Below, piece after piece: positions 243 to 5,278 of a stretch of 5,386 nt of DNA. The translations under genes and the position numbers were made by a program. Under the pieces are notes generated by a model. That model did not search any database and had not been told where the DNA came from. It worked only from the letters and a program-made list of their open reading frames with translations. The DNA comes from Nitrospinae bacterium RIFCSPLOWO2_12_FULL_45_22. Lineage in GTDB: Bacteria > 2-12-FULL-45-22. Within the stretch, counting starts at the first letter, position 1. Every line of letters begins with the position of its first letter. The DNA is taken from assembly GCA_001803565.1 (NCBI GenBank), contig MHDQ01000171.1, positions 1-5,386 on the forward strand. Reading direction: 5' to 3'.

Positions 243-270
243 ATTATACGTTCTGGATATTATATATCAA
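243..270 (-). promoter_or_regulatory. Candidate sigma70-type promoter before the radical SAM gene
   Basis: On the minus strand a -35-like TTGATA (270-265) is followed after 16 bp by a perfect -10 TATAAT (248-243). The -35 box overlaps the TGA stop of the upstream dehydratase subunit. Transcription would start near 235, giving a leader of roughly 80 nt before ATG 153. This would let the radical SAM gene be expressed apart from the dehydratase genes. The surrounding sequence is AT-rich (several TATA-like words), so chance matches are a real risk. Confidence 0.45.
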
Positions 271-1433
271 ATACGAGCACTAGAGATATTTTCAAAAAAG
301 GCCTGGATCCGGGTTTTCAACTGGCCGGTAGCACTAAAGAGATATTCCCTTTCCAACTTAAGGACCGGTACACCTACTTCTTGGAGGCCTTTTTTTATTA
401 AAGGATAGGTATTGGCATGGAGGTCACAGAATTTGATCACTTCATAGATCACGCCATCTACTGCAAAATCTTGAGCCATCTGGACAATGTATTGGACACG
501 GCTTTCCAGGGGATGCATCCGCGGGCAGGGGAACCGACTTAAGTAGCGACGGGCTAAGGCATTCAGGGGCTCTTCTTCTGGATCAACCATGCCCCAGAAA
601 TAGCGAGCACCATTACACAGGTCATCAGCTACGACTAAGCCGCCCGATTGCTCGATCAATTCCAGGAATTCAGGATGCTCCAGCTCACTCCCGCACACCA
701 TTAATCGCAGCTTCCCATCCTGGCTTATTCCTGAGCCCTTTGTTTCTATCTCTTGCAGGAGCTCTTCCAGAAGTACATTGTATTGGTCTTTAGGCATTAC
801 CATACCCGCCAGTATGGTATGCAAGGTTTGGGTCCCGGTCAGGGGTGGGTTAAGAGATTTTTTCTTTTCATATAGTTTCCCCAGGAGGATTCGAGTCCGG
901 TTATAGGTTCCAATAGCGGACCTCAAGGAGTCGATAGTTATTCTATTTCCGGTGAATTCTTCCAGGCTATGCCTAAAGCGACTCAATTCCTGGGTAAAGA
1001 ATCGGATAGTATTTTCTGTCACCTTAGTCGGGACACTCAGGATGATCTTAAATGGCATAGGTATATGATATGTCCATACATCGAAAAAGCGTCGGATATG
1101 ATCACAGGTATTGACACTGACCAGGCCATCTAACGAGTCATATCTCTTGTCTAATCCCATCTCCAGACAATTTCGGATAAAGGAGCAGGCATTGGAATAT
1201 AGGGTGGCATCAGCTAAAGGAGTTTCCTGGGCCCCACCCAATACCCTGATGGGTAGAGCCCCGGCAGCATAGATTATCTCTTCAGGCACATAGGTACACA
1301 CCCAGCCCATTAAAGCCCTCCCTTCCTGCTTCCATTTCCGGGCAAGCATATCACGCTGGGTAAAGGTATCTTCAAATTTTTTGATGGTGGTCATGCTGAC
1401 ATCAGCCCCTTTAATAGTATTGGTAGTAGTCAT
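267..1433 (-). CDS. 2-hydroxyacyl-CoA dehydratase / benzoyl-CoA reductase family, smaller subunit
   Basis: This 388-residue protein belongs to the HGD-D family (2-hydroxyglutaryl-CoA dehydratase D-component; also the BcrB/BcrC/BzdN type). The family transfers a very low-potential electron from a [4Fe-4S] cluster to an acyl-CoA. Three Cys sit where the family places its cluster ligands: Cys46 in GWVCTYVPEE, Cys110 in SVNTCDHIRR and Cys336 in IKFCDLHANTYPLIKK. A further conserved-looking Cys83 lies in NACSFIRNCLE. The C-terminus, VPVLKLEREY then TRIQAFFE, is the usual family ending, and the length fits HgdB/BcrC-type subunits (roughly 375-390). The protein is cytoplasmic, without a signal peptide. 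It starts 3 nt after the stop of its paralogous partner, so translation is probably coupled; an AGGAG lies about 10 nt upstream. An internal ATG at codon 14, itself preceded by GGGG, is a possible second start. Family and pairing are secure. Dehydratase versus ring reductase, and the substrate, are not determined. Confidence 0.93.
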   Translation of the reverse strand: MTTTNTIKGADVSMTTIKKFEDTFTQRDMLARKWKQEGRALMGWVCTYVPEEIIYAAGALPIRVLGGAQETPLADATLYSNACSFIRNCLEMGLDKRYDSLDGLVSVNTCDHIRRFFDVWTYHIPMPFKIILSVPTKVTENTIRFFTQELSRFRHSLEEFTGNRITIDSLRSAIGTYNRTRILLGKLYEKKKSLNPPLTGTQTLHTILAGMVMPKDQYNVLLEELLQEIETKGSGISQDGKLRLMVCGSELEHPEFLELIEQSGGLVVADDLCNGARYFWGMVDPEEEPLNALARRYLSRFPCPRMHPLESRVQYIVQMAQDFAVDGVIYEVIKFCDLHANTYPLIKKGLQEVGVPVLKLEREYLFSATGQLKTRIQAFFENISSARI

Positions 1434-1436
1434 GGT

Positions 1437-2723
1437 TTAACTTCTCCTAACCTTGCTCGCCTTTGCTTCTAAGGTTTTGAAATATTCATCCAGCAGGGAT
1501 TTGATTTGATGAGTTGAGGTTATCCTGGGGTCCAATGGGTCTCCCGTTATCATCAGGATAGGAAGGCCCAGTTCTTTACTGAGGTCTTTCCTTAAGAGCA
1601 TGAAGAAGTTAGAGGTCTGCTTACAGCCGAAGTTGGCAAAAAAGATGAACCCGTCTAAGTTCATTTCCCGGCAGGTGTTGATCATGTCTTCTTTGAAGCC
1701 TTCATAGGGCAAACAGCACCTGAGGCCCATAAAATTTAGTCTATTCCAGGCCAAAGTCTCCCAGGGGTCAGAAAAGCTAAGCTGGTTTTCCTCAAAAGGG
1801 AGTAAGTTCATCATATCTGCTGCCACACTAGCTTTATATGTATCCTCCATCCAATCAATCAGCTTCATATCGAAAAAGGGATAGAGCCCGAACCAGGCGA
1901 CCCGCAACCTCTCTTCAGGCAATCCGCCCTGCTGGCGCTCTACTTTATCTCTGGTCTCTTCATACTGGGCCTTAAAGAATTCCAGGGTTTCTGGAAGCCC
2001 TTCACAATAAAATCTCAGGGCAAAGGCGGAGAAGGCTTCCCGGGCCCGCAGGGGTGAAGGGATAGACCTTCGCAATTGATGGGTCAGGTGAAAGTAATGA
2101 TCGGTTTGGCGGGATATCTTCAGTATCTCTTCCAATTTACCCTGGTTTAATCGCCGGCCAGTGCGGTCTTTTAAGTATTGGGCTAATTCCTGAAGCTCCC
2201 GGGCTAGGTACTTAACGGCTTCCTCATCATAGGAATAGGGGAGATCCAGGAAATAGCCAGGACAATTACATAGATCGCCCAATAGCTCAAACATGGTGGT
2301 AGATGAATCGCAGGTGAGGGGTGCGGTAGATAAGATAAGGTCAGGCAGGGGTAATAGCCCGGCCTTTGCCATGCCAATAGCGGCTTTATGGGGAGAGCAC
2401 GACTCACTGGAGAACCCCAGGCCCTCGCCTAGGTCAAGATAGTCAGTATTCAATTCCTGGGCCATAAACTGGATGACATATTGCTCCAGCACAAAAGGGA
2501 CTATTCCCATAGCATAGAGAAGCTCTACCGGGATGAAGAGGCTAGTCCAGGCCAGGGGCTTATCCTCTTCACCAGCATTTCTTACCTGCGCATAATAATT
2601 TCTTATGGCCTCAGCATAATACCTCCCACTTTTAGAAATAGCATGGATCTTCCGATATTCTAACCGACTTTCTGCCCCTGCCAGCATCTTTTCCAATACC
2701 ATATTTCTATCTATACCTTTCAT
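1437..2723 (-). CDS. 2-hydroxyacyl-CoA dehydratase / benzoyl-CoA reductase family, larger subunit
   Basis: This is the second HGD-D family protein, 428 residues from the chosen start, and the probable heterodimer partner of the gene 3 nt downstream. The fold pattern matches its partner: TSLFIPVELLYAMGIVPF (60-77) aligns with the partner's CTYVPEE segment, PLTCDSS holds Cys138, and FANFGCKQTSNFF holds Cys367. Where the partner has its first Cys (Cys46) this protein has Ser61. Cys109 in SESCSPHKAA, Cys138 and Cys367 are therefore the likely cluster ligands. As I recall, the alpha subunit of 2-hydroxyisocaproyl-CoA dehydratase has this Ser-plus-three-Cys arrangement, which suggests this is the alpha-like, substrate-binding chain. 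Length fits HadB/BcrB-type subunits. The ATG at 2732 would add three residues but lies 1 nt from the AGGGGG motif; ATG 2723 is 10 nt away and is preferred. No activator ATPase is adjacent. The family is secure; the substrate is unknown. Confidence 0.92.
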   Translation of the reverse strand: MKGIDRNMVLEKMLAGAESRLEYRKIHAISKSGRYYAEAIRNYYAQVRNAGEEDKPLAWTSLFIPVELLYAMGIVPFVLEQYVIQFMAQELNTDYLDLGEGLGFSSESCSPHKAAIGMAKAGLLPLPDLILSTAPLTCDSSTTMFELLGDLCNCPGYFLDLPYSYDEEAVKYLARELQELAQYLKDRTGRRLNQGKLEEILKISRQTDHYFHLTHQLRRSIPSPLRAREAFSAFALRFYCEGLPETLEFFKAQYEETRDKVERQQGGLPEERLRVAWFGLYPFFDMKLIDWMEDTYKASVAADMMNLLPFEENQLSFSDPWETLAWNRLNFMGLRCCLPYEGFKEDMINTCREMNLDGFIFFANFGCKQTSNFFMLLRKDLSKELGLPILMITGDPLDPRITSTHQIKSLLDEYFKTLEAKASKVRRS

Positions 2724-2732
2724 CACATCCAT

Positions 2733-2901: not shown

Positions 2902-3705
2902 TCAGAACATGCTAAGGCCGCCGCTTACACTAATGGTCTGACCCGTCATATAACTTGCATCGTCAGAGGCCATAAAACAGGTTACAGCCCCTATTTCATC
3001 GGGTTCCCCTAATCGCTTAAATGGTACCCAGCCTACCATTCCCTGGATAATCTTGGAGCTGAACTCCCCAGCAGCCTCTAGTTGCTCCTTTACCAGAGGA
3101 GTAGCATGGGGTCCCGGAGAGACTACATTAACATTGATTTTATAACGGGCATACTCTCTAGCCAAGGTCTTGACCAAGCCTATCCCAGCCGCCTTCATGG
3201 CTCCATCAACCGCCTGGCCGGTGCTGCCCTGCCGGGCTGCATCGGTAGCAATAAATACTATCTTGCCATAATTGCGCCCCATCATTCCAGGTAGAACGGC
3301 CTTAAGGGCATAGATAAAGCCCCTCAATGTCACGGCATATTCCCTATCCCACTCTTCATCGCCAGTCTCATGAAAGGGTCGTAAGGCCCCCCTCTTCTCG
3401 CCAATAGCAATGGGGATAGCTGCATAGACTAGAATATCGATCTTGCCTAATTCGTTATTCGCTTGTTCAACAATCTCTCTCGTCATTTTCCCATCAGCGG
3501 CATCGGCTGCAAAGGCGAGAGCTTTCCGGCCATAGCTCCGGCATTCCTCGGCAGCTTTATCCGCATACTCTTTGACAATATCGGTCACTGCCATATTAGC
3601 TCCCTCGGCTGCCATCCGAACCGCAGCCTCTTTGGTGCTCCCTCTTCCTACACCCATTATCAGCGCTACTTTGCCATCAAATCTCCCAGGATAAAATCGT
3701 TGCAT
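2902..3705 (-). CDS. SDR-fold protein lacking the catalytic Tyr (atypical short-chain dehydrogenase/reductase)
   Basis: This 267-residue protein has the full length and order of a classical SDR: a glycine-rich turn GVGRG (18-22), Asp42 at the end of beta2 (typical of NAD(H) use), Asp68 near the adenine pocket, NVVSPGPHATPL (191-204), and the ending YMTGQTISVSGG (252-263). The usual active site is altered. By ungapped alignment to the classical S-x12-Y-x3-K pattern, Thr154 stands for Ser, Asp167 for Tyr, and only Lys171 is kept. The helix-4 Asn is Thr126, NNAG is replaced by YAAI (94-97), and the third Gly of GxxxGxG is Thr24. Ordinary Tyr-dependent hydride transfer is therefore doubtful. It could be a binding or scaffold protein or act by another mechanism. 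The ATG at 3705 has GGAGG 8 nt upstream; an upstream in-frame TTG at 3726 has none suited to it. It lies two nt after the stop of the radical SAM remnant and upstream of the dehydratase pair. Confidence 0.9.
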   Translation of the reverse strand: MQRFYPGRFDGKVALIMGVGRGSTKEAAVRMAAEGANMAVTDIVKEYADKAAEECRSYGRKALAFAADAADGKMTREIVEQANNELGKIDILVYAAIPIAIGEKRGALRPFHETGDEEWDREYAVTLRGFIYALKAVLPGMMGRNYGKIVFIATDAARQGSTGQAVDGAMKAAGIGLVKTLAREYARYKINVNVVSPGPHATPLVKEQLEAAGEFSSKIIQGMVGWVPFKRLGEPDEIGAVTCFMASDDASYMTGQTISVSGGLSMF

Positions 3706-3707
3706 AA

Positions 3708-3977
3708 TTAATCCCTCCCAACGCAAAAAACGGTTAACAAAGGCAAAAGCGATTCCATGATGACATCGTTATGCTCACACTCACCACATTTCCCCTTGCT
3801 CCGGCAATTAAATAGGATGAGGTCTCCATGTTGGCCAAATATTTCCTGGATGCTCTGCTCAAAGACATTCCCCACTACCAGGTCAGGTATCTGTCCGCAG
3901 GGAAAGACCCGGCCATCACAGACAATGTTGAAAGTGGTCTTGCAAGAGAATTTACTACATTCTATAGGCCCTATCCA
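3708..3977 (-). pseudogene. C-terminal remnant of a radical SAM/SPASM protein
   Basis: Between an in-frame TAA (3980-3978) and TAA 3710-3708 the minus strand codes for 89 residues with no ATG, GTG or TTG before the conserved part. The segment shows a SPASM domain, the C-terminal auxiliary Fe-S domain of many radical SAM enzymes. Cys12, Gly22 and Cys27 give CX9GX4C in CKTTFNIVCDGRVFPCG, then GNVFEQSIQEIF, then Cys64-x2-Cys67 in KCGECEHNDV. In the full motif CX2CX5CX3C, Cys would be expected at 73 and 77; here they are Ile and Leu, and the rest (IMESLLPLLTVFCVGRD) does not look like SPASM. The N-terminal radical SAM domain is absent. A second reading frame just upstream is open (LGKGLMDRAYRM, about 4000-3959, stopping at TAG) and could be more of the same gene across a frameshift. 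The stop lies 2 nt before the SDR ATG, as if the original gene headed this operon. Confidence 0.62.
3714..3718 (-). promoter_or_regulatory. Shine-Dalgarno of the SDR-fold gene
   Basis: The minus strand reads GGAGG within TTGGGAGGGATT, 8 nt before ATG 3705. This placement rules out the in-frame TTG at 3726 as the main start. The site lies inside the last codons of the radical SAM remnant, as in a translationally coupled operon. Confidence 0.8.
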
Positions 3978-4012: not shown

Positions 4013-5278
4013 TTAAAAACGATAAGCCAGACCTAAATGTATCATATTGTTCCACAATACCTGGTCTACTCCATGGATATTTTGATTTCCCCATGAAGCA
4101 TTGTAGGAGCCCTCGAGACGCCATCTCCCTAAGTCATAAGAGATACCGAAGGCTGCTTCTTTACGATCAACCGTCGCTACCGTAGTAAAACCCAGGAATT
4201 CGCCGGGCATCCCGCGCTCATCATAGTAAAACCCCGTACGCAGGGCCATCTTAGGAGAGACTCGGTATTCTACCCCGAAGCGATACCGGGCACTAATTTT
4301 CCAATGTAAGTTTATATTGGTATTTCGTAAATTGTCCCCGGGGTTGTCATAAGATACATGATATTTCTGTACCCGCCAATCTGTCCATTGCCAATCGGCC
4401 GTCAGGGTTAATGGTGGTATGGGTCTATAAGCTATGCCTATACCCCAGGTAGGAGGTTGAGGGAATTTCCGTAGATAATCGCTCCCTTCAGCGACGATAA
4501 CCTCTTTCCCGATCCTCTGATATATATGAGCGCCGCCCCTCATTCTGATTATACTTCCACTGCGATAGACCGCACCTACACTTATATCAGGATTAATCTT
4601 ATACAAGAGACCTGCTACTCCTTCCCAACCGATTCCTTTACCATTCTCTTCTATATCCATGTAGTAGTCAGATGAGGAAAGGGTTGGGTCGGTATTCTGG
4701 TATCGTTTATATACATCCAGCTCAAATTGACTGTATATGAGATTAATACCAACCCCCAGGGATAGCTTAGGGGTAACCTTTCTGGCCAGGGAGAGATTAG
4801 ATACGGCCATAAAAAATCTGGTATAAAAGGAGGCTAATATCTGTGCCTGGGTGACGGGGTCTAGGACAATATCCCGCCAATCCAGGAAGTTTCCCAGGGG
4901 ATTATAAGTAGCCAGACTCACGGTATACCCCTTCCAGTGGAAGTATCCGCCGATGCTGGGTTGATAGAAGCGATGCAGGACCTCTCTTTTGCTGAACCGA
5001 CTAGGCTCTGATGGGTAAAGCCGGGGGAATATATCTCCCCGGCGAATACTGAGCTTCCTATCCATCAGTTCCTGAGGATCCCGGTTGGCTATAGAGTCTC
5101 TATCCGCACCATTCCAATTAATGTTGAACAAGGTTATTCCGATAGAGTTTCCCTCCAACTGGGCTAGCCCAGCCGGGTTATAATAGCTCGCCGTCCAGTC
5201 ATCCGCCAGGCCGATAAATGCACCCCCCAAGGACATAGCCTTGGCACCAAAACCAGGCACTTCATAAGCGCCCCCCAT
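4013..5278 (-). CDS. FadL/TodX (OMPP1) family outer-membrane transport barrel, N-terminal signal missing
   Basis: The 421-residue product matches FadL-family channels, which move long-chain fatty acids, aromatics and other hydrophobic compounds across the outer membrane. Visible landmarks are GAKAMSLGGAFIGLADD (11-27), YYNPAGL (32-38, the family's NPAG hatch motif), FPQPPTWGIGIAYRP (272-286), LTADWQWTDW (292-301), and repeated amphipathic beta strands to a terminal Phe in MIHLGLAYRF, the usual signal for barrel insertion. The body length is normal. What is missing is the signal peptide: the protein opens directly with MGGAYEVPGFG, which resembles a mature N-terminus. The 13 codons between the preceding in-frame TGA and this ATG contain no start and no hydrophobic run, and no Shine-Dalgarno is visible. 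Either the 5' end has been lost, or there is a frameshift or assembly error. It is separated from the SDR by the radical SAM remnant, so its link to the acyl-CoA genes is uncertain. Confidence 0.85.
   Translation of the reverse strand: MGGAYEVPGFGAKAMSLGGAFIGLADDWTASYYNPAGLAQLEGNSIGITLFNINWNGADRDSIANRDPQELMDRKLSIRRGDIFPRLYPSEPSRFSKREVLHRFYQPSIGGYFHWKGYTVSLATYNPLGNFLDWRDIVLDPVTQAQILASFYTRFFMAVSNLSLARKVTPKLSLGVGINLIYSQFELDVYKRYQNTDPTLSSSDYYMDIEENGKGIGWEGVAGLLYKINPDISVGAVYRSGSIIRMRGGAHIYQRIGKEVIVAEGSDYLRKFPQPPTWGIGIAYRPIPPLTLTADWQWTDWRVQKYHVSYDNPGDNLRNTNINLHWKISARYRFGVEYRVSPKMALRTGFYYDERGMPGEFLGFTTVATVDRKEAAFGISYDLGRWRLEGSYNASWGNQNIHGVDQVLWNNMIHLGLAYRF

Follow-up and report, generated by a model that had tools for sequence, protein, structure and literature searches.

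The window, meaning the whole stretch of DNA analysed here, is an entire 5386-bp contig of a 3.67-Mb draft genome, and carries an SDR gene, a pair of HGD-D genes and a gene encoding an outer membrane protein:

267..1433, reverse strand: HGD-D beta-type subunit, 388 aa, 3 nt after the alpha-type gene (domain matches)
1437..2732, reverse strand: HGD-D alpha-type subunit, 431 aa, 169 nt downstream of the SDR gene (domain matches)
2902..3705, reverse strand: SDR-fold protein, 267 aa, with Thr126, Thr154, Asp167 and Lys171 (ORF, Pfam, AF2 model)
3713..3719, reverse strand: ribosome binding site GGGAGGG, 7 nt before the SDR ATG (sequence)
4013..5278, reverse strand: FadL/TodX-like outer membrane protein, a neighbour with only a putative link to the SDR (Pfam)

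The SDR frame is intact (reverse strand, ATG at 3705, TGA at 2904-2902), the ribosome binding site claimed in an earlier note on this DNA is present, and the two HGD-D genes downstream (267..2732, reverse strand) form the adjoining pair that the same note had described. The protein matches the Pfam families adh_short (9e-42) and adh_short_C2 (8e-51). The HGD-D alpha-type subunit retains Cys at what we presume, from knowledge of the family, to be the cluster positions. PADLOC gave no match. The positions of the SDR gene that are relevant to cofactor binding and catalysis, all located by alignment and on the reverse strand, are:

3634..3660, reverse strand: altered glycine motif I-M-G-V-G-R-G-S-T, residues 16-24 (canonical TGxxxGIG)
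3580..3582, reverse strand: Asp42 at the end of beta-2, retained in 3/3 copies
3415..3426, reverse strand: YAAI for NNAG, residues 94-97, followed by a longer loop
3328..3330, reverse strand: Thr126 for the helix-4 Asn (codon ACA)
3244..3246, reverse strand: Thr154 for the catalytic Ser (codon ACC)
3205..3207, reverse strand: Asp167 for the catalytic Tyr (codon GAT)
3193..3195, reverse strand: catalytic Lys171, retained (codon AAG)
3100..3117, reverse strand: PGPHAT, residues 197-202, with the Pro-Gly and Thr202 of the nicotinamide contact retained

Among 24 aligned SDRs outside the clade described below, S154, Y167, N94, N95, G24 and K171 are each present in 24/24, T17 in 23/24 and N126 in 20/24. 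Since the window protein departs at these nearly or fully invariant positions, the alignment to the SDR active-site block on which the earlier note relied was correct; residues and alignment agree on Thr, Asp and Thr in place of Ser, Tyr and Asn with Lys171 kept, and the reported loss of NNAG and alteration of the glycine motif are borne out by YAAI and MGVGRGST. Lys is the only member of the classical Asn-Ser-Tyr-Lys tetrad retained, and both classical motifs, TGxxxGxG and NNAG, are missing. P197 and G198 (23/24 each) and T202 (21/24) are all kept, and His200 stands where relatives have a conserved Thr. Asp42 is presumably the usual acidic residue of NAD(H)-type SDRs. NAD may be bound less tightly as a result of T17M, G24T and the missing NNAG.

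The Pfam matches and a FabG-like model place the protein in the SDR superfamily. The AF2 model, built from a 26-row alignment, has a pLDDT of 92 and a pTM of 0.91, with weaker stretches at residues 101-110 (mean 62) and 201-220 (mean 74), and it matches FabG in fold, with a Z of about 36 and an rmsd of 1.2 across 245 residues. The suggestion that the rest of the fold and the length are intact therefore stands for the fold and not for the length, since the loop after beta-4 exceeds that of BadH-like relatives by 7 residues.

Homologues with the same Thr/Asp/Lys (T/D/K) pattern, proposed in the earlier note as something to look for, do exist: a paralog in the same genome, 90% identical (G000:C161:10333-11133), and a copy in a betaproteobacterial groundwater MAG, 76% identical (JACRAS010000205.1:1238-2032; gene L013:1232-2035). 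The T/D/K set thus has three known members, two of them from one genome, and T24, YAA, T126, T154, D167, K171 and H200 are common to 3/3 copies. In the tree they form one clade (support 100/100) on a long branch. The nearest outside relatives (38-42% identity; 39-42% for those from the 386 genomes across the domain) have the BadH-like signature and the full canonical tetrad, and the later matches are likewise BadH-like and canonical, one of them being BadH proper adjoining badI; as these relatives are canonical BadH-like proteins, the window protein is, on its sequence, a BadH-like SDR that has diverged and has an extended loop after beta-4. Its top NCBIfam profile is BadH (TIGR03206), 2-hydroxycyclohexanecarboxyl-CoA dehydrogenase, with 207.9 bits, far below the equivalog cut-off of 431.2; a BadH control beside badI scored 443.7 bits. 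The signatures S/T-DAxR, VNVV-PGP and SVSGGL-M are shared with BadH and BadH-like SDRs, whereas the replacement of Asn, Ser, Tyr, NNAG and the third Gly and the longer beta-4 loop are not. Fixed in the clade relative to the BadH-like group are V19, S23, T24, Y94, A95, Y123, T126, T154, D167, H200, A201 and the insertion after beta-4, with Y94, Y123, T126, T154, D167 and H200 among the many of these differences that fall in the pocket. The betaproteobacterial gene stands at 49% G+C against about 62% for its contig, a difference that points to horizontal transfer; a mis-assembled contig is less likely.

The search for further members returned no second T/D/K copy in 369 genomes of the betaproteobacterium's class and 398 of its phylum, and no T/D/K copy in 386 genomes across the domain or in 95 of one further phylum; one and two genomes were searched for the phyla of G015 and G658. 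The contig-wide scan used short exact peptide patterns, which recover close relatives only, and members at 50-65% identity may escape it. Viral contigs were queried with both the single protein and the three-member alignment and gave no relatives, and all matches in plasmid records were below 60% identity (best 43.5%).

The expectation that the T/D/K pattern goes with HGD-D pairs failed, neither of the two other copies adjoining HGD-D genes: the neighbours of the C161 paralog are alcohol-dehydrogenase-like and aldolase-like genes, and the betaproteobacterial copy is flanked by apparently unrelated genes. The idea that a T/D/K SDR always lies beside HGD-D was dropped (0/2 other loci), and no operon conserved across the three T/D/K loci and naming a substrate was found. 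The draft genome has 67 matches to HGD-D (PF06050) in 3.67 Mb, so this reductase/dehydratase family is unusually expanded in it, and because of this number the HGD-D adjacency of the window SDR is weak evidence. The betaproteobacterial genome encodes a canonical BadH-like SDR clustered with an HGD-D operon (SDR, acyl-CoA dehydrogenase-like, two HGD-D subunit, activator-like and CoA-transferase-like genes). Since canonical BadH-like SDRs occur with HGD-D operons, cyclic or branched acyl-CoA chemistry would be the likeliest context.

As a separate observation on the HGD-D family, three alpha-type genes of the draft genome have an in-frame UGA where the others have the first conserved Cys:

G000:C231:5340-6494, forward strand: UGA-bearing HGD-D alpha gene
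G000:C53:6777-7883, forward strand: UGA-bearing HGD-D alpha gene
G000:C148:3053-4153, reverse strand: UGA-bearing HGD-D alpha gene

The contexts of the three UGA codons are RDL-U-SYLKN, GRDS-U-SLHRG and GRDS-U-ALHRG, and a tRNA-Sec is encoded in the same genome (C247:5690-5782, 75.3 bits). Selenocysteine is likely at the Fe-S ligand position of these three predicted proteins, a situation of which our literature search found no description.

Constraint on the pocket was compared with constraint on the rest of the protein over a set of 49 positions, chosen from general SDR knowledge rather than from a ligand complex and overlapping the structural core: identity between T/D/K pairs was 90% in the pocket vs 73% in the rest (p=0.015) and 90% vs 70% (p=0.004). 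The pocket odds ratio, about 3, equals that of canonical BadH-like pairs. Two further SDRs of the draft genome, the pair L007/L034, have lost both Tyr and Lys; they lie on a long branch separate from the T/D/K clade (deep support weak) and give no such excess in the pocket (62% vs 56%, p=0.5). Selection thus appears to act on the altered pocket as it would on that of a functioning enzyme, and the pocket's constraint, equal to that of canonical pairs, argues for ligand binding or catalysis over a mere scaffold. The two Tyr/Lys-less genes (L047:6688-7473 in G000:C43 and L116:2900-3673 in G000:C40) read TDAGRWPTPGE or TDGGRWPTPGE at the active-site block; the one in C43 has an enoyl-CoA hydratase-like gene on one side and an HGD-D pair on the other.

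The explanation that we favour, and to which we give roughly even chances, is a putative re-purposed BadH-like SDR that keeps NAD(H) and acyl-CoA-type binding and works without the tyrosine. Cofactor binding, pocket chemistry and substrate class are what we infer here: the kept Rossmann fold, Asp42, Pro-Gly-x-x-x-Thr contact and Lys171 make binding of NAD(H) and of an acyl-CoA-type substrate most likely, and Lys171 would pair with Asp167, possibly together with His200 and Thr154, to act on a substrate for which tyrosine is dispensable. The reaction might be a hydride transfer of the eugenol synthase kind, the proton being relayed via water or the substrate, or alternatively a lyase or isomerase step without redox change, so that a different or non-redox chemistry is possible.

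Somewhat unlikely, and still the rival that deserves most attention, is a non-catalytic pseudoenzyme subunit scaffolding an active SDR encoded elsewhere, in the manner of BbsC in the BbsC2D2 heterotetramer. The tetrad and the cofactor motifs are both altered, as is reportedly the case in BbsC; BbsD is among the best PDB sequence matches of the window protein (BbsC is not among the 60 listed); 13 other SDRs with Tyr and Lys in the genome are possible partners; and both T/D/K genomes also carry a canonical BadH-like SDR (L008; L127:9830-10729). The BadH-like SDR of the draft genome lies at G000:C145:6351-7151. BbsC (PDB 7pcs), the pseudoenzyme subunit of BbsCD, is by description alike in having the SDR fold without Tyr or the SDR catalytic motifs in anaerobic acyl-CoA metabolism (doi 10.1111/febs.16216). 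It is, however, encoded with the active BbsD, whereas no adjacent SDR partner gene is seen in the window, C161 or L013, within the view set by the contig ends; moreover, Lys171, Pro-Gly and Thr202 are kept, and the pocket is more constrained than the rest of the protein, unlike in L007/L034.

It is improbable that the protein is an ordinary NAD-dependent dehydrogenase in which Y94 or Y123 took over the proton relay. Both tyrosines are fixed in the clade and missing in BadH-like relatives, but neither stands four residues before Lys: the AF2 model puts Y94, which occupies the NNAG position, where beta-4 ends, and Y123 within helix 4. Ser and Asn are lost too. No close homologue with a normal Tyr was found among the relatives searched. 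Although loss of catalytic residues is typical of relaxed selection, decay or sequencing error is refuted by the intact frames, by dN/dS values of 0.06-0.10 (0.10 for window vs paralog; 0.06 and 0.09 vs the betaproteobacterial copy, rough values with dS saturated) and by the same residues in an independent assembly. An error in codons 154 and 167 in particular is excluded because two more copies carry identical residues, with Thr154 encoded as ACC, ACT and ACG in the three copies. The replacements are real, conserved and under selection, and the gene encodes a working, probably re-purposed protein; in agreement with the earlier note, it is not decaying.

Eugenol synthase and NEPS cyclases are precedents for a re-purposed SDR working without its tyrosine. 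Also comparable are the SDR-type 2,4-dienoyl-CoA reductases (DECR1, DECR2), which are described as acting on dienoyl-CoA with no Tyr four residues before Lys and as using other residues. Eugenol synthase, which also lost Tyr and kept Lys, is an active NADPH-dependent reductase relying on the equivalent Lys (PMC1991597), in a different SDR branch and on a phenylpropene substrate. NEPS iridoid cyclases have the classical SDR fold and an NAD site, some of them being redox-inactive and only cyclising (PMC9372074); these are plant enzymes, not close in sequence. Of the novelty claimed earlier, what holds is the conserved clade without Tyr, Ser and Asn; SDRs that are Tyr-less or non-redox have precedents in BbsC, eugenol synthase and NEPS. 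Tentatively, and with doubt, the clade may represent a new SDR subfamily using Asp167-Lys171, perhaps with His200, in place of Tyr-Lys, to transform an acyl-CoA that is cyclic or unsaturated, in an anaerobe whose genome encodes dozens of HGD-D reductases or dehydratases. Profile-based annotation would label the window protein an ordinary dehydrogenase. Tyr-Lys is the pair that characterises one of the largest enzyme families. Here a conserved clade under selection has replaced Tyr, Ser and Asn together, with fold, Lys and pocket still constrained, and nature thereby offers a clean test of what an SDR can still do once the tyrosine is lost.
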